In this document: in pieces, positions 49,104-64,000 of the stretch
How the letters are laid out: each line of letters starts with the position of its first letter
Numbering within the stretch: position 1 is the first letter of the stretch
Source of the DNA: Oligoflexia bacterium
GTDB lineage: Bacteria; Bdellovibrionota; UBA1018
Assembly (NCBI GenBank): GCA_023701205.1
Contig: JAMPXJ010000024.1
Location: 1 to 64,000, forward strand
Direction of reading: 5' to 3'
DNA: 64,000 bases
The notes under the pieces: generated by a model
What the model saw: only the letters and a program-made list of their open reading frames with translations
Databases searched by the model: none
What the model was told of the DNA's origin: nothing
Position numbers and translations under genes: made by a program

Positions 49104-49454
49104 GGGCCCGATCCGGCTTCGACGGGAGTATTGAAGTCCCAGACGCATGCCGAGGTGCCGTCAGGCCTCGTTAAACAGGCGGCTACTGTAATCGCGAACG
49201 ATTACGCTCTCGCTGCTTAATTTAATTAAGCACGACGTCTCTCCTGTCTTCGCCTAGGTGCCAGGAAGAGACGCCATTCACTAGGCTAGTTTCCGACCTC
49301 TCGCAGATGGGCCGGAAGCGAAACCAAAGTCTGCGGAGGGTCGACGCAGTTTGTTCCTGGACGTCGCCGGCCCAATCCAAAACAGGAACTAAGCATGTAG
49401 ATTCTGGCGGCGGATTGCTTTCGGACGTGGGTTCGACTCCCACCGGGTCCACCA
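49104..49454 (+). ncRNA. ssrA: Transfer-messenger RNA (one-piece tmRNA)
   Basis: This RNA of 351 bases rescues stalled ribosomes. The 5' GGGCCCG pairs with the 3' CGGGTCC to make the alanine-tRNA-like acceptor stem, followed by the discriminator A and an encoded CCA. The T-arm GTGGGTTCGACTCCCAC is at the 3' end. The resume codon GCG is at 49194, after the usual TACTGTAATC-like sequence. The tag reads ANDYALAA and stops at TAA (49218-49220), only 8 residues, a very short version of the usual tag but with the conserved ALAA end. The antisense strand of the 3' half is read by the serine recombinase frame, which enters at 49454 and stops at 49286. Confidence 0.95.
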
Positions 49455-51166
49455 CTTTGAACAACAGACGCGTTTTCGTCCGAAAGAAATCGGGCTGGAC
49501 GCGTCGAGCGCAAGCTCTGGACATTGAAACTGTTGGGGATGGCCCCGGAGGAAGACTCCGGGGCCATTGCTTTTTTGGGAGATGGGATAAAAGGCCCACT
49601 GCCGGCGGCCGTCACGTAGTAGGCGTGCAGGCCATCGTGGGTGTAGATGAGCTGATCCACCAGGCGCCGGACCAGACGCTTTCGAACTGCCGGAGTGGCT
49701 TTCTTCCAACCCCGCTTGAACTCGGTCGCCCGTTCTTCAACGACAGAGCGGGCAAACTTCGCGTCATTCGCCGCCTCGATCTTGGCCAGGATTTCTTCCC
49801 TGAACGCCAGAAGCTCCCGCTTACGTTCGGCGAGCTTTTCCATCTTCTCGTGGACCATCTTTGCCACGTCAGGCGTGCCGCTCATCTCGGTATACAGCCG
49901 AAAAGCTGCATCGATGTCTTTTTCGAGCTGCGTGAGCTCCTTTTGAACCCGGTCTCGTTCCACAAGAAGGTCGGCGCCCTGGACACCGATGTTCTTTCGG
50001 ATGTTCGCTTCGACCTGATCGAGGTGACCCGCACGCAGTAACATCTCGTCCAAGTGATTCACGACCGCTTCCTCAATCTCCTCAGCACGGAGGCGTTTAA
50101 CTTTGCAGGTCTGCTTTTCACCGACAACCAACTTGTGACCATAATACCGATGAATCAGTTGTTTACCGTGGGAAGCCTGGCCTATCAGTGCCCGACCGCA
50201 GTCTCCACAGCGGATGATTCCGGACAGGAGAAAGAATCGGCGATCGCCATTCTTACAACGATCGCGTTCTTTCACGCGATTCTCCTGAACCAGTCGTCGC
50301 ACAAGATCAAAGGTCTTTTCTTCGATAATCGCCGGCCAGGCCCCTTTGACAATTTGATAGCGCTGCCAAGCCTTGAGCGACTCCTGATCCTCATCCTTGT
50401 TGTGCTTGTTCACTTCCCTCTTGCCAACGTAGGTGAGGTTCGTCAGGTGATTGCGGACGGTGCCGACTGTCCATCGCCCATCGAGCGCGTGGCGGCACTT
50501 TCGGCCGGAAGCGATCTTTGGGCGAATCCCGGTACCATTGAGTCGCTTTGCCGTTTCCTGAAGACTCCCGGTCTCCAGATACGTATCGAAAATCATTCTG
50601 ACCGCTGGCACCTCGGCCTGATTGACGATGAGCTTCCCTGGATTGCTCGGGTCCTTGTCATAACCCAGGATCGGATTCCCACCATTCATAAGCCCACGCA
50701 GGGCGCGCGAGTGGAAGTTCATGGATACGCGCTCGGAGGTCTGTTTACGCTCGAACTGGGCGAGGTTGATCATATTGTAGATCATCATCTCGCCGACCGG
50801 CGTGCTCGTATCGAACTGCTCTTTGACCGAGAAGAACTTAGCCTTTTGCTCTTCAAGCTCTTTCAGGAGTCCACAGAAGTCGAAGATATTGCGCGAAAGG
50901 CGCGAGATATCGGTCACCAGGATCATGTTGATTTTGCCAGCACGGATATCCCTCATCATCCGCTGGTAGGCCGGTCGACGGGTGTCCTTCGCGGAATAGC
51001 CGTCATCGATGTAGGTATCGACGATCTTTCCCCAAGATCCCTCCTGGCTATTTCGCAAATCGACGTAGCCTCTCACGCGGTATTGCTGGTTCTCGATGGA
51101 GCCATCCATGACCTGCGCTTGCTCTTCGGTCGACACCCTTACATACGCGCCAATCTTATGCGGCAT
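49286..51166 (-). CDS. Large serine recombinase (integrase/resolvase family), fused to locus DNA
   Basis: The product is 626 aa from the ATG at 51166, which has GGAGGA upstream. The N-terminal resolvase domain carries catalytic Ser12 in YVRVSTEEQ, and the MILVTDISRLSRN and FERKQTSERV segments. A recombinase domain follows (PILGYDKDP..., about 190-290), then a zinc-ribbon (CGDCGRALIG), a long coiled coil (about 400-490) and a basic end. Such enzymes integrate and excise mobile elements. The last ~100 residues are unlike the family, because the frame continues through the tmRNA terminator and antisense to the tmRNA 3' half, stopping at 49286. The tail may come from the host site rather than from the element. 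Confidence 0.88.
   Translation of the reverse strand: MPHKIGAYVRVSTEEQAQVMDGSIENQQYRVRGYVDLRNSQEGSWGKIVDTYIDDGYSAKDTRRPAYQRMMRDIRAGKINMILVTDISRLSRNIFDFCGLLKELEEQKAKFFSVKEQFDTSTPVGEMMIYNMINLAQFERKQTSERVSMNFHSRALRGLMNGGNPILGYDKDPSNPGKLIVNQAEVPAVRMIFDTYLETGSLQETAKRLNGTGIRPKIASGRKCRHALDGRWTVGTVRNHLTNLTYVGKREVNKHNKDEDQESLKAWQRYQIVKGAWPAIIEEKTFDLVRRLVQENRVKERDRCKNGDRRFFLLSGIIRCGDCGRALIGQASHGKQLIHRYYGHKLVVGEKQTCKVKRLRAEEIEEAVVNHLDEMLLRAGHLDQVEANIRKNIGVQGADLLVERDRVQKELTQLEKDIDAAFRLYTEMSGTPDVAKMVHEKMEKLAERKRELLAFREEILAKIEAANDAKFARSVVEERATEFKRGWKKATPAVRKRLVRRLVDQLIYTHDGLHAYYVTAAGSGPFIPSPKKAMAPESSSGAIPNSFNVQSLRSTRPARFLSDENASVVQSGGPGGSRTHVRKQSAARIYMLSSCFGLGRRRPGTNCVDPPQTLVSLPAHLREVGN
49539..49576 (+). 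terminator. Rho-independent terminator downstream of tmRNA
   Basis: ATGGCCCCGGAG and CTCCGGGGCCAT form a perfect 12-bp stem around a GAAGA loop, followed after 3 bases by TTTTTT on the + strand. It lies 85 bases past the mature tmRNA 3' end and probably ends the ssrA transcript. It sits inside the recombinase reading frame on the other strand, so the native ssrA locus may extend to here. Confidence 0.8.
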
Positions 51167-51384: not shown

Positions 51385-51609
51385 CTATTTGGGCTCATGG
51401 CGTTTGAGTTCCTCGATATGGGCTATGGCCTTCGGCTTGGATAGCGAATCCAGATATCGAAGCAGCCGGATCGCAAGTTTCCCTGGGGCGCGGAAGTCAG
51501 TCTCGATGTTCATCATGCTGCGATAACCTGACAGGCAAAGAAGCTCCGCCATCTCGTCGCGGCTCATTTGAAACTTCTCCCTGATGCGCTTGACCTCGTC
51601 TCCCTTCAT
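51385..51609 (-). CDS. Small helix-turn-helix (XRE-like) regulator
   Basis: The product is 74 aa. VKRIREKFQMSRDEMAELLCLSG is a compact helix-turn-helix as in XRE/Cro regulators. The remaining ~40 residues form helices (KLAIRLLRYLDSL) likely used for dimerisation. Its ATG overlaps the stop of the upstream gene (51606-52031). It lies between that gene and the recombinase and probably regulates integration or transfer. The target is not known. Confidence 0.7.
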   Translation of the reverse strand: MKGDEVKRIREKFQMSRDEMAELLCLSGYRSMMNIETDFRAPGKLAIRLLRYLDSLSKPKAIAHIEELKRHEPK

Positions 51610-52031
51610 TGGTCTCCCTCGTTCGTCATGTCATCATTGATGACATTCTTTTTCAAGTCCCTTTTTGCACGTGGCTTGGCGGCCTCATCAAGTCCGAGCT
51701 GCTTCTGCAATAGAGCTTTGATATCCGAAGGAACTTTGCCGGACTTCTTGGCCTTCCGCAGCACTGATTCAAGGAACGCGATGTCATCGAAATGCTCGGC
51801 CCGGATCTCTCGGATTTCTGCGTCTCCGCATGATTCGGCATAACGCACGAGAACCCAATTGAGCACTTGAGTCCGATTGACTTTCCCGCCCTCGAATCCG
51901 CTATTCACCCTGTCCACCACGCTCGACAACGCCTCTTCCGCTGCCTTCGAAACAGATATCCGATATAACTCCTCGCCTTTTTCCTCAGTCTTTTTTTCCT
52001 CTATTTCCTTCAATTGAATTTGATCTTCCAT
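51606..52031 (-). CDS. Putative DNA-binding accessory protein (ribbon-helix-helix-like)
   Basis: The product is 141 aa. The start is very charged (IQLKEIEEKKTEEKGEE). A core around residues 22-70, YRISVSKAAEEALSSVVDRV and NRTQVLNWVLVRYAES, resembles a strand-helix-helix DNA-binding unit as in relaxosome accessory proteins, but this is a pattern impression. A basic/acidic C-terminus ends in a four-base overlap with the HTH gene. GGGAGGTAGG precedes the ATG. Upstream lies a 108-base hairpin. A mobilisation or partition role is inferred from position. Confidence 0.5.
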   Translation of the reverse strand: MEDQIQLKEIEEKKTEEKGEELYRISVSKAAEEALSSVVDRVNSGFEGGKVNRTQVLNWVLVRYAESCGDAEIREIRAEHFDDIAFLESVLRKAKKSGKVPSDIKALLQKQLGLDEAAKPRAKRDLKKNVINDDMTNEGDQ

Positions 52032-54917: not shown

Positions 54918-56492
54918 CTATGCGGCAATATTCACCTTTAGGCCGGCACTCTCCCTATTTGTCTTCGGAACTACAGGGATCTCGCTGGGCGGTAAATCCC
55001 CATACCTCCGGAACTTGATCTCGATCGCCCGGCTCCCAGCCTCGTGCGGAATGATCATGACGGCTTCGCCGACGCCGAGTTCGCGCTTGAAGTGGTTCGG
55101 GTGGATGACGAACTCGTCGACTTCGCGGGCTGAGGTATCGCCCGTCGCCTCTTCCTTCCAGAGGACCTTCTTCCTCCGCTCGGTGTATTTGATCGCCTTC
55201 ACCGTGCCGATGACTTTCGAGAAGTACTCGGCCGACTCGGGATCATTGCCTCGCATGAAGACCTTGATGTTGGCGTTGGTGAGAATCGAGTTTGCGATCG
55301 CGTCTCCCATCGTCTTGATGTCACCCAGGGCCTGATGCGCAAACACGACGCCGACATTGGCACTTCGCGATTTATTGAGCACCGAAACGAATCCCGGATA
55401 AAGATACTCGGAAAAGTCATCCAAGAAGACCGAGAAGAACTGCGGGCTCTTGTCGGCGCTCCGATGGCGATTGGCGACCGCGCTCTGAAGGCACTGAAGG
55501 ATCATTCTTCCCGACGCCTTTCCCAGAAACGGGGAGAGAAGCACTGGGAGCTGAAAGTAGACGATCAGGTTTTGGTTTAACGCGTCCTCAAGCGTGATGC
55601 CGGGCTTCTCGGTATTGAAGAGGCACGCGCTCTTGCCAAAGGCGAAGTGACTGAGCGCTGCCGTCAGCCCGCTCGTTCTCTGCGCCCTCTCGCTGATCGA
55701 AAGGGCCGCAAAGTACTCACTCCACTCACGAAGGGACGAATCCTCGAGCTCCCGCGCAATGGCCTGAAGCCGGTTTGGCTTTGTGATGACCTCATGCACC
55801 CGAGTAAAGGTCGGAACGAACTTCGCCGCTTCAAAAACGCGCATCACCTGCGAAAAGATCTCAAATTGAAGGCTTCGGTAGTACGGGTTTTCAAATTCAA
55901 AGGAATTGAAAACGCGCTCGGAGATCTCCTCGGCCGTTCCGCCAATCAAGGGGTTGAACTGGTGCGACTCCTCGATGTGGCTGAGTGAAAAGAGCCTAAA
56001 GTCCTTCTCTCGCCCGGATTTCACCGTATAGGTCCAGAGCTTATCAAGAAGCGAGCGGTCGGCCTTTCCGTCGATCAGAATGAGTCCTCGGCCTTGCTCG
56101 ATATCTTGAATCGCCCAGGGGAGAATGACCGACTCCGTCTTACCGGCATTGGTCGTTCCGATCACCTGCGTATGCATGGCACGCTGCCTGGGCTTGATGT
56201 GGACCTCCTCGCCTTCTTTCGTTTTCCCGCAATAGACTGAGCCCGGAGCGGGAGCGAGGATTGCCTTTTCGCGTTCTCGTTTCTCCACCGCGACTTTGCG
56301 CTTTTTCATGGCCCACGCTGCGCCTCCGGCTGTGCCAGCACCCAACGCGCTCGCAAGAAGCAATTGGTTCTCCGGAGCTTTGATCCAATGGGAGAACCAC
56401 CCATCCAGGCGACTCAAGGCCGAAATGGCGCCAATAAGTCCCGCGCCCCAAAGAAGAAGCTGATCGCTTGGCTCAATCCCCCTATCGTCCAT
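54918..56492 (-). CDS. virD4: Type IV coupling protein (VirD4/TraD family)
   Basis: The product is 524 aa. Two N-terminal membrane segments (about 13-29 and 43-61) precede the ATPase. Walker A is GTTNAGKTES (Lys118), and VFLDDFSEYLYPGF is the Walker B-like segment. The QVIGTTNAGKT and AIQDIEQGRGLILIDGKADR motifs are typical of VirD4/TraD/TraG. The protein delivers DNA and proteins to the type IV secretion channel at the inner membrane. Its start overlaps the virB10 gene by 11 bases. It is on the same strand and in the same operon as virB6-virB10. Confidence 0.9.
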   Translation of the reverse strand: MDDRGIEPSDQLLLWGAGLIGAISALSRLDGWFSHWIKAPENQLLLASALGAGTAGGAAWAMKKRKVAVEKREREKAILAPAPGSVYCGKTKEGEEVHIKPRQRAMHTQVIGTTNAGKTESVILPWAIQDIEQGRGLILIDGKADRSLLDKLWTYTVKSGREKDFRLFSLSHIEESHQFNPLIGGTAEEISERVFNSFEFENPYYRSLQFEIFSQVMRVFEAAKFVPTFTRVHEVITKPNRLQAIARELEDSSLREWSEYFAALSISERAQRTSGLTAALSHFAFGKSACLFNTEKPGITLEDALNQNLIVYFQLPVLLSPFLGKASGRMILQCLQSAVANRHRSADKSPQFFSVFLDDFSEYLYPGFVSVLNKSRSANVGVVFAHQALGDIKTMGDAIANSILTNANIKVFMRGNDPESAEYFSKVIGTVKAIKYTERRKKVLWKEEATGDTSAREVDEFVIHPNHFKRELGVGEAVMIIPHEAGSRAIEIKFRRYGDLPPSEIPVVPKTNRESAGLKVNIAA

Positions 56493-57471
56493 TGGTCGCT
56501 CCCGGATCGCGGAACGTGAAGGCCTGATTGAGAACGGCTAGCGACTCGGTGCCGGCCTCAAGCTCAATCCATTTCTTCTCTTTTCTCAGGTCCTCGGCCC
56601 ACGTATTGGCGCGATCCTTGGCGGTCTCGGCGATGGCGTTTTTCATGCCGTTTGAGTGGCCTCCCTCGGAAGCGCCCAGTTGTCCGCGCGACATGGAGCC
56701 CTCGGCGTAGGCGCCGATAAAGCGCGTGATGGTTTGACCGATCGTGTTCTTCACAGCCTCGGAATAAACCCGCCCCTCAACGCCAACTTGTCCGTCGCGG
56801 CCTACGCCAATGGCCGAAAGCTGGCGCTCCCGTCCATCCGGAAACTGAAGCGCCCGCCAGGCGAGGTGTGCCCGCTCCGAGGAGTCATCAAACGAGATTT
56901 CGCCAAAGAGCTTTGATCCCTCAGGAATCGCGACCGTGTCCTCATGCTGGAAGTCCGATGAGACCACCCCGATAACGGGCATCGCTTGCCCCGAAATGGT
57001 CGCTCTTTCTATAAGTCTCACGCGAATGCGGCTTCCCGGAGGAAGCTGGGTTCTGGAGTCAAGCCCCCCTCGGGTCAAGACCATCGAGGTACTGCGATCG
57101 CCTCCACGTCGACCTCCGCCGCCCATACCCACGCCTTGCGCGGACTGATAGAGGTAATCAAGCGACGAGGGCACAGCGCCCACGCCGGCTTTCGCCGCCT
57201 GAAGTTGCGCCCAAGTGTCATCGGTGGCCGTTGATTCGGGGACTTTCGCCACCTGTGCGGAGCCGGGCTCAGCCTTCTCATGAAAGCTCGGGTTCTCGGG
57301 CTTGGGCTCGGGCATCAGAAGAAGCGCCACGACGGCAACGCCGATGCCGATGGCGCCAAACTTCTTGATCGCACCCCAATCGATATCACGTTTTGTGGTG
57401 AAAGGCTTGGGCTCTTTCAGAAAGAACTTCGAGAGTCGCTCCTTCAGAGAAACTGAGGCTATTATTTCCAT
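56482..57471 (-). CDS. virB10: VirB10/TrbI family protein of type IV secretion
   Basis: The product is 329 aa using the ATG at 57471, which has AAGGTG upstream and a short overlap with virB9. One membrane segment (about 36-52, GAIGIGVAVVALLLM) follows a cytoplasmic start with KEPKPFTTKRDI. The C-terminal domain (about 140-300) has TRTQLPPGSRIRVRLIERAT-like strands, PEGSKLFGEISFD and a GRVYSEAVKNTIGQT segment, the TrbI/VirB10 pattern. It spans the envelope and gates the channel. It is shorter than the 380-450 aa typical of Ti-type VirB10. Confidence 0.82.
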   Translation of the reverse strand: MEIIASVSLKERLSKFFLKEPKPFTTKRDIDWGAIKKFGAIGIGVAVVALLLMPEPKPENPSFHEKAEPGSAQVAKVPESTATDDTWAQLQAAKAGVGAVPSSLDYLYQSAQGVGMGGGGRRGGDRSTSMVLTRGGLDSRTQLPPGSRIRVRLIERATISGQAMPVIGVVSSDFQHEDTVAIPEGSKLFGEISFDDSSERAHLAWRALQFPDGRERQLSAIGVGRDGQVGVEGRVYSEAVKNTIGQTITRFIGAYAEGSMSRGQLGASEGGHSNGMKNAIAETAKDRANTWAEDLRKEKKWIELEAGTESLAVLNQAFTFRDPGATNGR

Positions 57472-58184
57472 GCGGTCACCTTGGGAAGAGTTAGAAATGA
57501 CATTTTCTTCCACCTCAGCTCCAAGCGCAGTGGGTCCGCATCCGAAACATCCGAGCGAAGGACTTGCATCACTCCTGAAACTATCTCGCCCGGCTTGATC
57601 GCCATCGACGAGAGAAACAGAAGGTGAATCGGCCGCGTCACTCCGCTTTGCGTGAGCCAGAGCCATTCCGCCTTCAACACCTCGGGCTTCGTGCTTCGAA
57701 TGATGAACTCGATCAGGAGGATGCCGTCACGAGACCGACCCAAGCGCTTTACCTCCAGCGAAAGCGTCTCATTCGTGAGAGATCGCTTTATCGGTGTCCA
57801 GACAAGCGATGCCTTTGCCTCTTTGTAGGTTTCTTTCGGGTTCTCAAGATAAACGACGTAATCGGCCGCTGGTTCGGGGCCGGTCACGAGCTGCACGTTG
57901 TAGCGCCTCCAATCCGTATAGATATACAGATTGCTCTTGGCGCTCCCATGAAGCGGCTTGATCGTGACGGCCTGATCCAGATACTCAACTTTGAAAGCGT
58001 CGAGATCACCCACCACGACGCTATTGGGCCGATCCGGTACTTGGATGATCGTTGCGATCCCAAGCGCCGTTCGGACGGCCTCGATTTGATCTTGAGCGAT
58101 TGCAGCTCTCCGCACCTTCGGCGGAGCGGCCTCGGTCGCAAATGGGAATACAAGCAACAGAATCCAGAGAAATAGTGGATTCAT
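57462..58184 (-). CDS. virB9: VirB9/TrbG-like outer channel protein
   Basis: The product is 240 aa with a signal peptide (FLWILLLVFPFATEAAPP). The central part has VGDLDAFKVEYLDQAVTIKP and SNLYIYTDWRRYNVQL, the order of beta motifs characteristic of VirB9/TrbG/TraK. A C-terminal part with WLWLTQSGVTRPIHLLFLSS is the second domain. VirB9 forms the periplasmic/outer-membrane ring with VirB10 and VirB7. Its stop overlaps the virB10 start by 10 bases. It is separated from virB8 by the PadR/Cdd1/VOC cargo block. Confidence 0.8.
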   Translation of the reverse strand: MNPLFLWILLLVFPFATEAAPPKVRRAAIAQDQIEAVRTALGIATIIQVPDRPNSVVVGDLDAFKVEYLDQAVTIKPLHGSAKSNLYIYTDWRRYNVQLVTGPEPAADYVVYLENPKETYKEAKASLVWTPIKRSLTNETLSLEVKRLGRSRDGILLIEFIIRSTKPEVLKAEWLWLTQSGVTRPIHLLFLSSMAIKPGEIVSGVMQVLRSDVSDADPLRLELRWKKMSFLTLPKVTAWK

Positions 58185-59636: not shown

Positions 59637-60221
59637 TCACTCCTCCCTTTCTTTTGCGACGTAAATGCCCCAAGGATTTTCTTTTGATCTTGTGCCGCTC
59701 TCGAAACCCAGTTCTAGCCGAAGGCTACCGGCAGCCTTTAACCCCTGGATGGCCGTTACGCGATCTCCGGTGATAACTGCGGTCCTTCTCTCAAGACTCA
59801 CGTCGATCTTCTCGGGGTATACCCGCTGGGCAACAGCTTTCTCCGTCGAAAACTTCGCAACGTTCGCTACGGCCGCCTGGTACGCCCTCACGCTATTAGG
59901 AAGTATAAAGGCCTCTGCGCCCCGCAGTCGCTGCTTCACATTCGCAGGCTCCCATCGATACCGAAGTTCGAGATAGCGAGCGATCGCCTCCCGAACCTCA
60001 TCCTCCGGCTTCGGAAGCGTCGTCTGTTCAAGCGACGCGCCCGAAGGACTGAGAGCCAAGACCACCGGCGGTCGGGTCGCCGTTACATACAGAAGCCCGC
60101 CGCACACAAGCGCGAGCGCCAGCCCAAGTAAAGCAAACACCTTCAAGACCTGATTCGAGTGCGTGAGTTCCCCGAGCATCCTGGGGAACCGGGCTGATTC
60201 AAGCTTTGTATTCTGGTTCAT
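59637..60221 (-). CDS. virB8: VirB8/TraE-like inner membrane protein
   Basis: The product is 194 aa. It has a short cytoplasmic start, one membrane segment (about 27-47, LKVFALLGLALALVCGGLLY) and a periplasmic NTF2-like domain with EDEVREAIARYLELRYRWE and SLERRTAVITGDRVTAI, typical of VirB8/TraE. It nucleates the inner-membrane complex. It follows virB6 by 15 bases and is cut off from virB9 by the cargo block. Confidence 0.75.
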   Translation of the reverse strand: MNQNTKLESARFPRMLGELTHSNQVLKVFALLGLALALVCGGLLYVTATRPPVVLALSPSGASLEQTTLPKPEDEVREAIARYLELRYRWEPANVKQRLRGAEAFILPNSVRAYQAAVANVAKFSTEKAVAQRVYPEKIDVSLERRTAVITGDRVTAIQGLKAAGSLRLELGFESGTRSKENPWGIYVAKEREE

Positions 60222-60236
60222 GCGTAAATCCCTTCT

Positions 60237-61109
60237 TTAGCGGTTACGAGGAGGAGTTCGGATCTTCGCAACTTGAGCGCGCACGAAAGTCTGTCCGTGG
60301 TTGAGAACATTTCGACTGGTTGTTGCCACCATCGCGGCTCGGGCCGGGGCGGCTGCCATCGCGGCCACCGCCGCAGGCCCGAGGGTCGACGACATGGACT
60401 GAAAGCCTTGTCCCACAAGCGAGCGCACGATAAGTGGGGTCGCAAGCATCGCGATGGCAATCACGAAATTTATGACGATCAATGTCAGGTAGTTTCCTTC
60501 GGCCTTGTAGGCATCGCCAAAGGAAAGCGCCGTAAGCATCGCACCCAGGATCGCCCACACGATTTTCCAAGAGGCCACCTCGATCATTCCCTTGAAAAGG
60601 TTCACCGTGATCTGGCTTGTTCCCGAGAACAAGTTGAAGAGAAGCAGCAAGGGTGCGGCCACCATGAAAAACGCCCAGAAGAAGTGATACATCGCTATCG
60701 TCAGATAGCGCGCAATATAGAGAATGAGGTAGCTCAAAAACGATAACGTCGCGATGATCAGGTCATTGAACTGAAGGAGAATGCTCGTCGGTGAGAGCGA
60801 GTAGTTCTGGGATTTCTCCTGGGCCATGCGGATGATCGTGTCGATGGAACTTAAGGAGTCAATTCGCTCGGTGATTCCATCGGCGACAAAGACAATCGCC
60901 CGGCTGATATCCGGAAACGCCGCCAGGAGAATCGTCGAGATCACCGCGCGCTTCAGGACATCCAGAAACTCGATGCTTCCTTGCGGGGAGCGAAACCATG
61001 TCACCGCAATCGAGAGCGCAAAGAAGACGGGGAGCATCAGGTAATAGACCCTGACGAAATCCTGGTGCAGGTCGCGCATGAGCGAACCGAGAAGTTCAAA
61101 CTGTGGCAT
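60237..61109 (-). CDS. virB6: VirB6/TrbL-like membrane protein
   Basis: The product is 290 aa with AGGGGG before the ATG. Five or six hydrophobic segments are seen (about residues 20-40, 55-75, 110-135, 140-165, 180-200, 205-230), the shape of a VirB6/TrbL polytopic protein. The motif YLTIAMYHFFWAFFMVAAPL and the following VNLFKGMIEVASWKIVWAI segment fit. It forms the inner channel. The end is soluble and Ala/Arg-rich. A group II intron lies upstream of its start, separating it from virB5. Confidence 0.7.
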   Translation of the reverse strand: MPQFELLGSLMRDLHQDFVRVYYLMLPVFFALSIAVTWFRSPQGSIEFLDVLKRAVISTILLAAFPDISRAIVFVADGITERIDSLSSIDTIIRMAQEKSQNYSLSPTSILLQFNDLIIATLSFLSYLILYIARYLTIAMYHFFWAFFMVAAPLLLLFNLFSGTSQITVNLFKGMIEVASWKIVWAILGAMLTALSFGDAYKAEGNYLTLIVINFVIAIAMLATPLIVRSLVGQGFQSMSSTLGPAAVAAMAAAPARAAMVATTSRNVLNHGQTFVRAQVAKIRTPPRNR

Positions 61110-61486
61110 CAGTTACCCCCTGAGCGCCGGGATAAACCGGCAGATTGGTTGTTAGTGTTACGATTAACCTTTAAACGCCTAGCCAGCGATAAAGTGCCCG
61201 AGTCATGCGGGCGTGTCCGCAATGGCACGTCCGAAGCGTTGACAGGGTTGCAAGCAGGCCAAGTATTGAGCCCCGAAATCAACTCGAAATCAGGTGCCGA
61301 CGCCCTAGGAGGACGCGGAAGGCAACAATCGATGGATCGTTTCGGCGAGATCGGTCGATACCTGACGGGGTCAAAGAACTTGAGCATGCTTTGCCGTGCC
61401 AATCTGCGCGAGAACCGGGAGATCCCATGTTCAGCCAGTGGTGCAACGCCATTGGTTCGCATCGTGAAGTCTAAGGACGCACGACG

Positions 61487-62971
61487 ATGATGAACGAACA
61501 TGGGAAGTCGGACAGAACCAAAGTACCTGCGAAGTTCGCGAACAAGGGTGGCACCCATGCGCCTGCGGAGCGGGATGGAGGGAAGGGTTCTGGCCAAAGG
61601 GAACGCGACAAGCAAAACGCGTCGAGGGTCACAGCAGCCCACAAAGGCGCGCCCAATGCGCTTGATCGCGTACGCAAGCTCGCCAAGAGCGATAAAAAGG
61701 TGCGGTTCACGAACCTGATGCACCATATCTACAACGTCGACAGACTCCGTGCGTCCTACTTCGCGATGAAGAGAACAGCAGCGGCCGGCGTCGATGGGGA
61801 GACTTGGGCAAGCTATGGAGAAAGGCTTGAGGAAAACCTCGCGGCCCTCTCTGAGCGACTGCGCAAGGGAGGATACCGAGCGAAGCCTGTCAAAAGAACG
61901 TTCATACCAAAAGCCGACGGCAAACAGAGACCCCTCGGGGTTCCTGTGCTGGAAGATAAAATCGTTCAGCGAGCCACGGTTGACGTACTGAATGCGATCT
62001 ACGAGACGGACTTTCTCGGATTTTCCTATGGATACCGACCGGGTAAAGGGCAGCACAACTGCCTCGATGCCTTGTACGTCGGACTTCTCACCAGGCAAGT
62101 GAATTGGGTCTTGGATGCGGACATCCGAGGCTTTTTCGACAATCTCAGTCACGAGTGGCTGATCAAGTTTGTCGAGCACCGAGTGGGTGACGAGCGTGTT
62201 CTCCGGCTGATCCAGAAGTGGCTCAAGGCCGGAGTTATGTTCGAAGGCCGCAGAGAAGAGACTGAAGAAGGGGTACCGCAGGGCGGGAACATCTCGCCGC
62301 TGCTCGCGAACGTCTACCTTCACTACGTCTTGGATCTGTGGGCGCAACAAAGACGACAGGACAAATCGCGCGGAGAGATGATCATCGTGCGATGGGCTGA
62401 CGACTTTGTTGTGGGTTTTGAACACAAATCGCAAGCCGAGAAGTTTTTGGCGGATCTGAGAGAGCGCATGCTCAAGTTCAGCCTCGAGCTTCATCCCGAG
62501 AAAACGCGCATCCTGGAGTTTGGCCCCTGGGCCATTAACAACCGGAAGCGACGCGGACTCGGGAAGCCGGAAACTTTCAACTTCCTTGGGTTCACGCACA
62601 TCTGTGGCAGGAAATGGGGAAACAAGAGGTACACGGTTCATCGGCGAACGATTGCGAAGAAGATGAGGGCAAAACTCAGTGAAGTGAAAACGGAGCTGAG
62701 AAAGCGCATGCACCAGCCGATCCCTCAACAGGGAAAATGGTTGAGGAGCGTGGTGGACGGACACAACCGATACTACGGAGTGCCCGGCAATGCGGATGTG
62801 CTGTACCGCTTCTACAAAGCGGTCTGCCGCTACTGGTTGACCGTGCTGCAACGGCGCGGAAATCGTCGACCAATGACGTGGGGCCGGCTGCGGCGACATA
62901 TCGACCGTCATCTCCCTTCGCCCAAAATCCATCATCCTTATCCGCTCAGACGAATGGGCGTTATCACCTGA
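61487..62971 (+). CDS. ltrA: Group II intron reverse transcriptase/maturase
   Basis: The product is 494 aa. RT motifs include KRTAAAGVDGETW, RTFIPKADGKQRPLGVPVLE, LDADIRGFFDNLSH, EGVPQGGNISPLLANVYLH and the catalytic WADD box (VRWADDFVV, Asp305-Asp306; Trp replaces the usual Tyr). The maturase/thumb X domain follows (RTIAKKMRAKLSEVK) and the protein ends in RRMGVIT. There is no HNH endonuclease domain, so it is the En-minus type that usually relies on other priming for mobility. It copies the intron RNA and helps it splice. A 5' extension of ~60 basic residues precedes the RT. Confidence 0.93.
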   Translation: MMNEHGKSDRTKVPAKFANKGGTHAPAERDGGKGSGQRERDKQNASRVTAAHKGAPNALDRVRKLAKSDKKVRFTNLMHHIYNVDRLRASYFAMKRTAAAGVDGETWASYGERLEENLAALSERLRKGGYRAKPVKRTFIPKADGKQRPLGVPVLEDKIVQRATVDVLNAIYETDFLGFSYGYRPGKGQHNCLDALYVGLLTRQVNWVLDADIRGFFDNLSHEWLIKFVEHRVGDERVLRLIQKWLKAGVMFEGRREETEEGVPQGGNISPLLANVYLHYVLDLWAQQRRQDKSRGEMIIVRWADDFVVGFEHKSQAEKFLADLRERMLKFSLELHPEKTRILEFGPWAINNRKRRGLGKPETFNFLGFTHICGRKWGNKRYTVHRRTIAKKMRAKLSEVKTELRKRMHQPIPQQGKWLRSVVDGHNRYYGVPGNADVLYRFYKAVCRYWLTVLQRRGNRRPMTWGRLRRHIDRHLPSPKIHHPYPLRRMGVIT

Positions 62972-63063: not shown

Positions 63064-63768
63064 CTACTCCGACTCCAGAGGTTTCAGACTCGTTTCTTTG
63101 GGGAGAGACCCCAGCGCACTCGAGATTCCGTCGTATTGGGTGCGGAACTGGGCGGACTCGAGTTTGTCCTTCCGGTTCTGTAGAGCCATGTTCTCGGCCA
63201 TCATTTTGAGCATCATGGAATTGGTCCGGAGCACCTGAGTCGTCACCCCAATGAGCACCGCGACCGACTGCGCGGTGAGTTTCCCAGCCCCTTGGGGATT
63301 CACGGCCTGGGAATGGCTGATGATGCGTCTACTCTGCTCGTCGGCCTGGTCGGCAAATCGGAAAAGCGTCCCGTTCATCGCAATACTCTCCGCGACCGAC
63401 TGGTCTTGAGCCCGCTGAAGCTTCGCATCGCCAGTTTGCGGTATCCTCCCGTAGAGATCGTTGATGACCGCCATCACGCGATCAGCCGTCGCAAGATCGC
63501 CATAGAGGCCGGGATTGAACTTCGGGTCCATCATCTGGATCACGCCAAGCCCCTCCCGAATGCCGCGGTTGATGTCTCGAAGGAGACCTAAGGTATCCGC
63601 GCCAGTCCCGAGAATCTGTCTCAGCTGCGCGAGTTGGGTAACCGCGTTTGCCAGGATATTCAGAAGAATCGGGATGTCCGCGCCAAAGAGATCCGCCTTT
63701 GCAGGAGTTGGAAGTGCGATAGCAACGGACATTAGGAGAACGACAAGCGCTTTCTTAGCTCTCTTCAT
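63064..63768 (-). CDS. virB5: VirB5/TrbJ-like secreted protein
   Basis: The product is 234 aa with a signal peptide (KALVVLLMSVAIALPTPAKA). It is helix-rich, with a start like TrbJ/VirB5 (DLFGADIPILLNILANAVTQ, LAQLRQILGTG) and several long helices. VirB5 proteins sit at the pilus tip and may bind recipients. The start overlaps the virB4 stop (ATGA). The group II intron begins right after its stop, so the very last residues could have been altered by the insertion. Confidence 0.72.
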   Translation of the reverse strand: MKRAKKALVVLLMSVAIALPTPAKADLFGADIPILLNILANAVTQLAQLRQILGTGADTLGLLRDINRGIREGLGVIQMMDPKFNPGLYGDLATADRVMAVINDLYGRIPQTGDAKLQRAQDQSVAESIAMNGTLFRFADQADEQSRRIISHSQAVNPQGAGKLTAQSVAVLIGVTTQVLRTNSMMLKMMAENMALQNRKDKLESAQFRTQYDGISSALGSLPKETSLKPLESE

Positions 63769-64000
63769 TCTTGCCCTCCTTTGATTGATGCTTGGCCTTG
63801 GGCGACACCGTTCGGGTAGATCCGAGCGGCCTTTTCGATCGCTTCAACCAGGTTCACCCCCTGAGCCCGCTGCTCCGCGAGATATCTGTTATCCTGAGCG
63901 TCGCTTGTGGAGAGCCAGTATTCAAAGGCACTCGGGAAAATGCGGACCACCTGCCGGTGATCGCCCTCGATCATGAACCCCTCGGAGAATTCGCCCTTTC
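63765..64000 (-). CDS. virB4: VirB4/TraC family ATPase, C-terminal part only
   Basis: The gene runs off the right edge; about 78 codons are visible. GEFSEGFMIEGDHRQVVRIF and SAFEYWLSTSDAQDNRYLAE match the end of VirB4/TraC ATPases (the EYWLSTxxxxDN segment is typical). These power pilus assembly and transport. A shorter reading from an ATG at 63974 is unlikely, as the conserved stretch starts before it. It overlaps virB5 by four bases. Confidence 0.7.
   Translation of the reverse strand, partial: KGEFSEGFMIEGDHRQVVRIFPSAFEYWLSTSDAQDNRYLAEQRAQGVNLVEAIEKAARIYPNGVAQGQASIKGGQE

Follow-up and report, generated by a model that had tools for sequence, protein, structure and literature searches.

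The ssrA locus and the element beside it

The window, that is, the whole 64-kb stretch of DNA analysed here, contains an ssrA gene and, on the opposite strand, a large serine recombinase gene whose reading frame runs antisense through the 3' half of the tmRNA before stopping at 49286-49288. This overlap, to which the original prediction had drawn attention, was borne out by an ORF of 626 residues and by detection of the tmRNA gene with both ARAGORN and Rfam (RF00023, 191 bits). The features of the locus are listed below, the junction between host and element having been placed by analogy with mapped relatives.

49104-49454, plus strand: tmRNA gene (ssrA), tag ANDYALAA, the host target gene
49286-51166, minus strand: large serine recombinase ORF in its integrated state, 626 residues, ATG start, stop at 49286-49288
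49451-51166, minus strand: recombinase residues 1-572, element-encoded; relatives at other tRNAs share this stretch up to the CCA
49451-49606, minus strand: element-encoded linker, residues 521-572, including half an attachment site and the antisense of a terminator
49289-49450, minus strand: host-templated tail, residues 573-626, antisense of the tmRNA
49449-49450: inferred crossover dinucleotide, the last two acceptor-stem bases, beside the discriminator and CCA
49451-49454: ACCA, the final four tmRNA bases, probably supplied by the element
49455-49481: element sequence past the CCA, expected from the arms seen in relatives to carry one attP arm
49541-49576, plus strand (the tmRNA strand): terminator hairpin and T-run, within the recombinase coding region

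The recombinase starts with the ATG at 51166 (MPHKIGAYVRVSTEEQ), and it has the domains of a large serine recombinase, namely, Resolvase (residues 7-158; PF00239), Recombinase (184-296; PF07508) and a zinc ribbon (313-372; PF13408, Zn_ribbon_recom), together with the catalytic serine motif, the serine of the catalytic region being invariant among 19 aligned members. The zinc ribbon is followed by a coiled-coil-like region and then by the linker, the counterpart of which lacks an in-frame stop in relatives and is predicted to be disordered in an unsplit relative, L089. No second resolvase adjoins the gene among the ORFs of at least 50 residues that were checked. Its closest counterparts in named records come from Bdellovibrionota MAGs, and no close relative was found in plasmid and phage collections.

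The tail of about 100 residues that had been proposed for this enzyme is host-derived only in its last 54 residues (573-626, 49289-49450), residues 521-572 being encoded by the element. The hairpin at 49541-49576, which had been read as the ssrA terminator, is likewise borne by the element rather than by the host, since the same hairpin is found in the 3' coding region of recombinases from relatives inserted in tRNA-Ala genes. Across the family described below, 41 of 78 loci have a terminator-like hairpin on the tRNA strand within 180 nt of the CCA, compared with 23 for the opposite strand and a shuffle expectation of 7.5; the 3' coding region of the integrase gene thus seems to double as the transcript end of the target gene.

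The tmRNA acceptor stem (49104-49110 and 49444-49450) differs by two compensatory pair changes from that of the sister genome G001, being GGGCCCG/CGGGTCC in the window and GGGGACG/CGTCTCC in G001. In several relatives (L001, L002, L004, L007, L008, L018 and L020), pieces of the 3' end of the tmRNA (..CCACCGTCTCCACCA or similar) repeat within about 300 bp downstream of ssrA, and these resemble scars of successive integrations.

To the right of the recombinase lie conjugation genes, because of which we place the recombinase at the attL end of an ICE:

51385-51609 and 51606-52031, minus strand: small element ORFs upstream of the recombinase, the second conserved in collinear ICEs
54918-56492, minus strand: TraG/TraD-type conjugative coupling protein
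56482-57666, minus strand: TrbI
57462-58184, minus strand: CagX-like protein
59637-60221, minus strand: TraE
60237-61109, minus strand: TrbL
63765-64000, minus strand: start of a VirB4/TraC-type ATPase gene, which runs on to contig position 66287

An integrase, a coupling protein and T4SS genes are therefore present in one element, as in an ICE; a relaxase was not identified in it. The element extends beyond the window, and its stretch between 49.3 and 67.5 kb is collinear with the ICEs of G267 (in a tRNA-Ala gene) and G300 (in a tmRNA gene). Between the TrbL gene and the gene at 63064-63768 there is a group II intron (RF02005, 165 bits; 61161-62971, plus strand) with a reverse-transcriptase ORF at 61487-62971, which can be regarded as an insertion in this particular ICE because its flanking genes adjoin in the collinear ICEs of G267 and G300. 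At the right end of the contig (G000:C13:70639-74905, L032) there are genes for a transporter-like protein, a sensor kinase and a sigma-54-type regulator, conserved at 55-64% in G003:C33, which also has a C-terminal integrase module; these genes are probably ICE cargo.

Attachment sites and the continuation of the integrase frame

We gathered relatives of the recombinase from the order and the phylum, obtaining 81 non-duplicate loci in which a tRNA or tmRNA gene lies downstream on the opposite strand. The recombinase frame is open into the antisense of this gene in 78 of them, with targets that comprise 13 tRNA isotypes as well as tmRNA. From the last aligned residue to the tRNA, these 78 frames contain no stop in 5,392 codons, whereas the other two frames over the same stretch contain 216 and 399; after mononucleotide shuffling only about 4 of 76 would be expected to be open. 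Therefore, as a rule the element itself provides no stop for the recombinase gene; the host tRNA region does. The T-loop is read in a single frame (..CGA-ACC, Arg-Thr) in 69 of the 78 relatives, and a tree of the 78 integrases requires at least 31 changes of target and only five of frame. The resulting tails have no common length or end: they shrink to about six codons with a GTTCAA T-loop, which gives TGA in frame, and are much longer elsewhere. As a rough control, since viral contigs may be trimmed at att, LSRs from such contigs (about 30% identity) had any flanking tRNA in only 1 of 80 cases, and there it was upstream.

The crossover was mapped in G197, where a 41-kb element occupies a tRNA-Pro gene at a site that is empty in G200, G202 and G207. 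The attB, attL and attR of G197 have CGACCATTT in common, located at the 3' end of the tRNA, and the reconstructed attP has 15-bp inverted arms, GGTTCGCATAATACA-20-TGTATTATGCGAACC. It thus has the traits of a serine-integrase attP, namely, a length of about 50 bp, inverted arms around a short crossover region and a sequence that differs from attB; similar arms are present in several relatives. As read from this comparison of empty and filled sites, the crossover falls in the last bases of the acceptor stem, and the discriminator and CCA are re-supplied by the element. By analogy with the tRNA-Pro case, and given 24 core matches, the crossover in the window would lie at about 49449-49450. The comparison with an empty ssrA locus that had been suggested could be made in part with the sister genome G001, to which the left host flank is syntenic as far as the CCA; past this point no match was found, but the comparison is thin because G001 has only 122 bp beyond ssrA.

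When the ends of the G197 element are joined in silico, the integrase frame continues through attP for about 165 further codons. All 24 relatives in which both ends could be read (16 of 16 pairs, plus 8 of 8 from a second subclade with a different module) give in the same way one longer, uninterrupted integrase frame through attP in the excised form, although these fusions do not amount to 24 independent trials, since the elements share ancestry. In each of the 16 pairs the core of attR is the antisense of the CCA/acceptor end of the target, and the frame of the integrase is that of the module; in L086 (frame 0) and L087 (frame 1) both halves have shifted together, such that the fusion is still in frame. 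The members of the second subclade are small elements at tRNA-Ser and tRNA-Leu genes with a different, shorter, HTH-like module. The distance between integrase and module ranges from 2 to 43 kb. Thus, the claim that integration joins the 3' end of the enzyme to host DNA, and that the circular form has a different C-terminus, holds throughout these relatives. In them, judging from the joined ends, integration has been shown to split the gene into a catalytic part with a host-templated tail at attL and a C-terminal domain that is stranded at attR.

Unsplit full-length genes, of 751-769 residues, were found in L042 and L089, together with a partial one in L068. A second int, at a tRNA-Met gene and in identical orientation, is located about 25 kb from L089, as would be expected if the int of one element had been fused to the module of its tandem neighbour. 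The unsplit contig G038:C42 has no terminal repeat that would mark it as circular. L069 has no tRNA past the break and might have been a circle, but it was not assigned as such, the expected second arm being absent.

The attR of the window element itself probably lies beyond the end of the contig. This is suggested by the ICEs of G267 and G300, in which the modules sit well past the last gene shared with the window element, and by the end of contig C13 at 75,052. An inverted-arm search of contig C13 and a search of the whole genome with the pattern TGGTGGN{6,34}ACGCGTTT gave no match for this attR, and a profile search of the genome gave no fitting match for its C-terminal module, which by analogy with the relatives the element would be expected to possess. 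The sole module match in this genome (G000:C10:75805-76122, L260), at a contig end, was rejected as the module of the window element: its core is TGGGGTG, which is tRNA-His-like, and not TGGTGGA, and it therefore belongs to another element, either a second split element or a remnant of one.

The stranded module and the meaning of the split

The main module, of about 160-165 residues, comprises a helix-turn-helix together with a partial second PF07508 recombinase domain. An alignment of 20 modules was used; a mixed alignment (A4) was dropped because module fragments fell on the N-terminal recombinase domain. Matches to the module profile lie at the distal end of many elements, oriented as the model of a split gene predicts. 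An AlphaFold (AF2) model of the module, with a mean pLDDT of 84, consists of a three-helix HTH and an RD-like domain, and its best PDB matches in Foldseek are serine integrase complexes, with weak E-values (0.016) and a probability of 1.0; the modelled module therefore resembles the DNA-binding domains of serine integrases. Comparison of the closely related elements of G197 and G198 gives dN/dS values of 0.06 in the catalytic region, 0.09 in the module and 0.34 in the short linker, which implies purifying selection on the module even though each integrated copy has it detached. When L089 is modelled at full length, residues 536-624 are predicted to be disordered and att, at about residue 601, falls inside this stretch, from which it follows that the cut leaves both folded parts intact. 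An in-frame ATG, GTG or TTG ahead of the module is absent from 6 of 16 attR sequences, such that the detached module is probably silent.

Related stand-alone genes, with or without the HTH, occur at L043 and L204, near integrases or tRNA-Pro, and these may be separate accessory factors. At L055 (G031:C326) a C-terminal module is followed almost at once by an integrase and tRNA-Lys, an arrangement of about 2 kb that may be a minimal or decayed element.

Given the crossover position, the in-frame fusion across attP, and the identity and purifying selection of the lost module, all of which were established in relatives from their sequences, we consider it highly probable that the window contains the attL end of an ICE in which attP lies inside the large serine integrase gene, and that integration splits this gene. 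In the circular element, the integrase gene would read through attP into a C-terminal DNA-binding module made up of an HTH and a second recombinase-like domain. Crossover with the 3' end of ssrA, that is, the acceptor/CCA end, would restore the tmRNA gene and split the integrase gene; attL would keep the catalytic, recombinase and zinc-ribbon domains with an antisense-tmRNA tail, and the C-terminal module would be left at attR. The circle would thus make full-length Int, expected to favour integration, and the chromosome truncated Int, which could not repeat integration and would serve excision together with a separate directionality factor. Excision would then restore the full-length gene.

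That the integrase gene works in this manner as a state switch between full-length and truncated Int is a reading to which we give about an even chance; it is the most likely role, given that transfer of an ICE requires its excision and that a complete serine integrase is retained in the truncated form. We propose more tentatively, judging it somewhat below even, that there is a phylum-wide family in which recombination toggles between a full-length, integration-competent form in the circle and a truncated, excision-competent form in the chromosome, the directionality switch being built into gene structure and operating at many tRNA and tmRNA targets. The original prediction, according to which the tail acquired on integration could switch activity, is thus right in essence and partly supported: the C-terminus does change, but the change is probably the loss of a domain of 70-165 residues rather than the gain of a tail, because tail length varies with the sequence of the T-loop.

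A serious rival, although a rather doubtful one in our estimation, is that the split is a passive by-product, attP being located in int because this keeps site and enzyme linked, with both enzyme forms acting alike and the lost module having some unrelated role, such as repressing a promoter in the circle. The retention of all canonical LSR domains by the truncated form and the position of the junction in a predicted disordered linker fit this explanation, and so does the existence of two unrelated C-terminal modules in two subclades, which implies that the identity of the module is not strict. It accounts poorly, however, for the purifying selection on the module (dN/dS of 0.09), and for the frame across attP having changed only five times in the course of 31 inferred switches of target. 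We find it unlikely that the integrated element expresses the module from attR for action in trans, as part of a split protein or as a detached directionality factor. Some attR ORFs do have an upstream in-frame start (e.g. L275), and stand-alone module genes exist (L204), but the 6 of 16 attR sequences without such a start mean that this cannot be general.

Still less probable, to the point of being nearly discounted, is that the antisense-tmRNA tail is itself functional, as a host-templated peptide that modifies the enzyme. Its frame relative to the tRNA is nearly constant (69 of 78), but this constancy is accounted for by in-frame continuity across attP, and the length of the tail is set by the T-loop sequence, with no shared length or end. 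Antisense tRNA frames are commonly open over tens of codons, giving rise to spurious ORFs, and the open frame over the tmRNA could on this basis be a biologically meaningless accident. The absence of stops at 78 loci, against hundreds in the other frames, and the continuation in frame into conserved domains in 24 of 24 cases already refute chance for the family, and leave it virtually no probability in the window.

Relation to known systems

The prediction that serine recombinases are less usual at ssrA is supported in part. At tDNA such enzymes are uncommon, although earlier cases exist. The Islander paper states that no serine integrases were known at tDNA (PMC4383910), and another paper calls them rare (PMC3218068); we dropped the stricter statement that they never target tDNA, given DsiB at ssrA in Dehalococcoides (PMC3146451) and, as cited in PMC3218068, the serine recombinases of Mycobacterium AICEs (tRNA-Leu) and of phage phiRSM1 (tRNA-Ser). 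The latter are few cases with single targets, and the passage on them in PMC3218068 reports no gene splitting.

The closest parallel, by description, is DsiB of Dehalococcoides, a serine recombinase of about 540 residues beside ssrA, whose 3' end overlaps attL and whose stop lies only outside the island, its frame being antisense to ssrA (2011, PMC3146451). Its authors suggested that the enzyme is perhaps fully functional only on the circle or beside an island with the 'requisite 3' gene fragment' (PMC3146451). The window enzyme is, like DsiB, a serine integrase at ssrA with no stop before the target gene. DsiB, in contrast, is CcrB-like, has a small partner recombinase, DsiA, and was assigned an insertion in the T-loop. 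The window recombinase has no second resolvase beside it among ORFs of at least 50 residues, and the present family has many tRNA targets or tmRNA, with the crossover at the acceptor/CCA end in relatives. Moreover, whereas the missing 3' fragment of DsiB was not identified, the lost module has been identified here in 24 elements, such that the family supplies, across a phylum, the fragment postulated for Dehalococcoides. The Streptococcus ICEs that enter rumA by means of a single serine integrase exchange the 3' portion of their integrase gene with the target on integration (Ambroset et al., 2016, PMC4701971), and there too the C-terminus of a serine integrase is altered. In that case, however, the target is protein-coding, both proteins change frame, and loss of a domain was not described (PMC4701971).

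A similar logic is found in the archaeal 'suicidal' (SSV-type) tyrosine integrases, in which attP lies within the int gene, the targets are tRNA genes and integration splits the gene, a partition proposed to control direction; a 2021 review described such self-splitting enzymes as exclusively archaeal (PMC8371274). The archaeal split removes the part with the catalytic domain (Int(C)), whereas what the bacterial serine enzymes described here lose is an additional DNA-binding module, the catalytic part being retained. Since the truncated form keeps all canonical LSR domains, the inability of the integrated fragments to excise the element, typical of the suicidal type, may not hold here. The likeness is one of working only, as these enzymes have serine recombinase domains and not the tyrosine recombinase fold; the present family thus extends gene-splitting integrases to bacterial serine enzymes. 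The Int of myxophage Mx8 is a tyrosine recombinase that acts at a tRNA gene. Its attP also lies in int, and integration gives int a new 3' end, which alters specificity without inactivation (reviewed in PMC6070905). Mx8, which shares attP-in-int and the exchange of the 3' end with the present family, is a single phage.

The choice between integration and excision by serine integrases is central both for mobile elements and for genome-engineering tools. The natural pairs of full-length and truncated enzymes, with their matched attB, attP, attL and attR, make the effect of the module on direction directly testable. The family also adds about 80 serine integrases with conserved tRNA and tmRNA ends as targets, potentially useful as portable landing sites, and the C-termini of all of these will be mis-called by annotation pipelines. 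Compared with the open-licence literature, the advance over known systems is that the lost fragment has been identified and that the phenomenon is general across one phylum.
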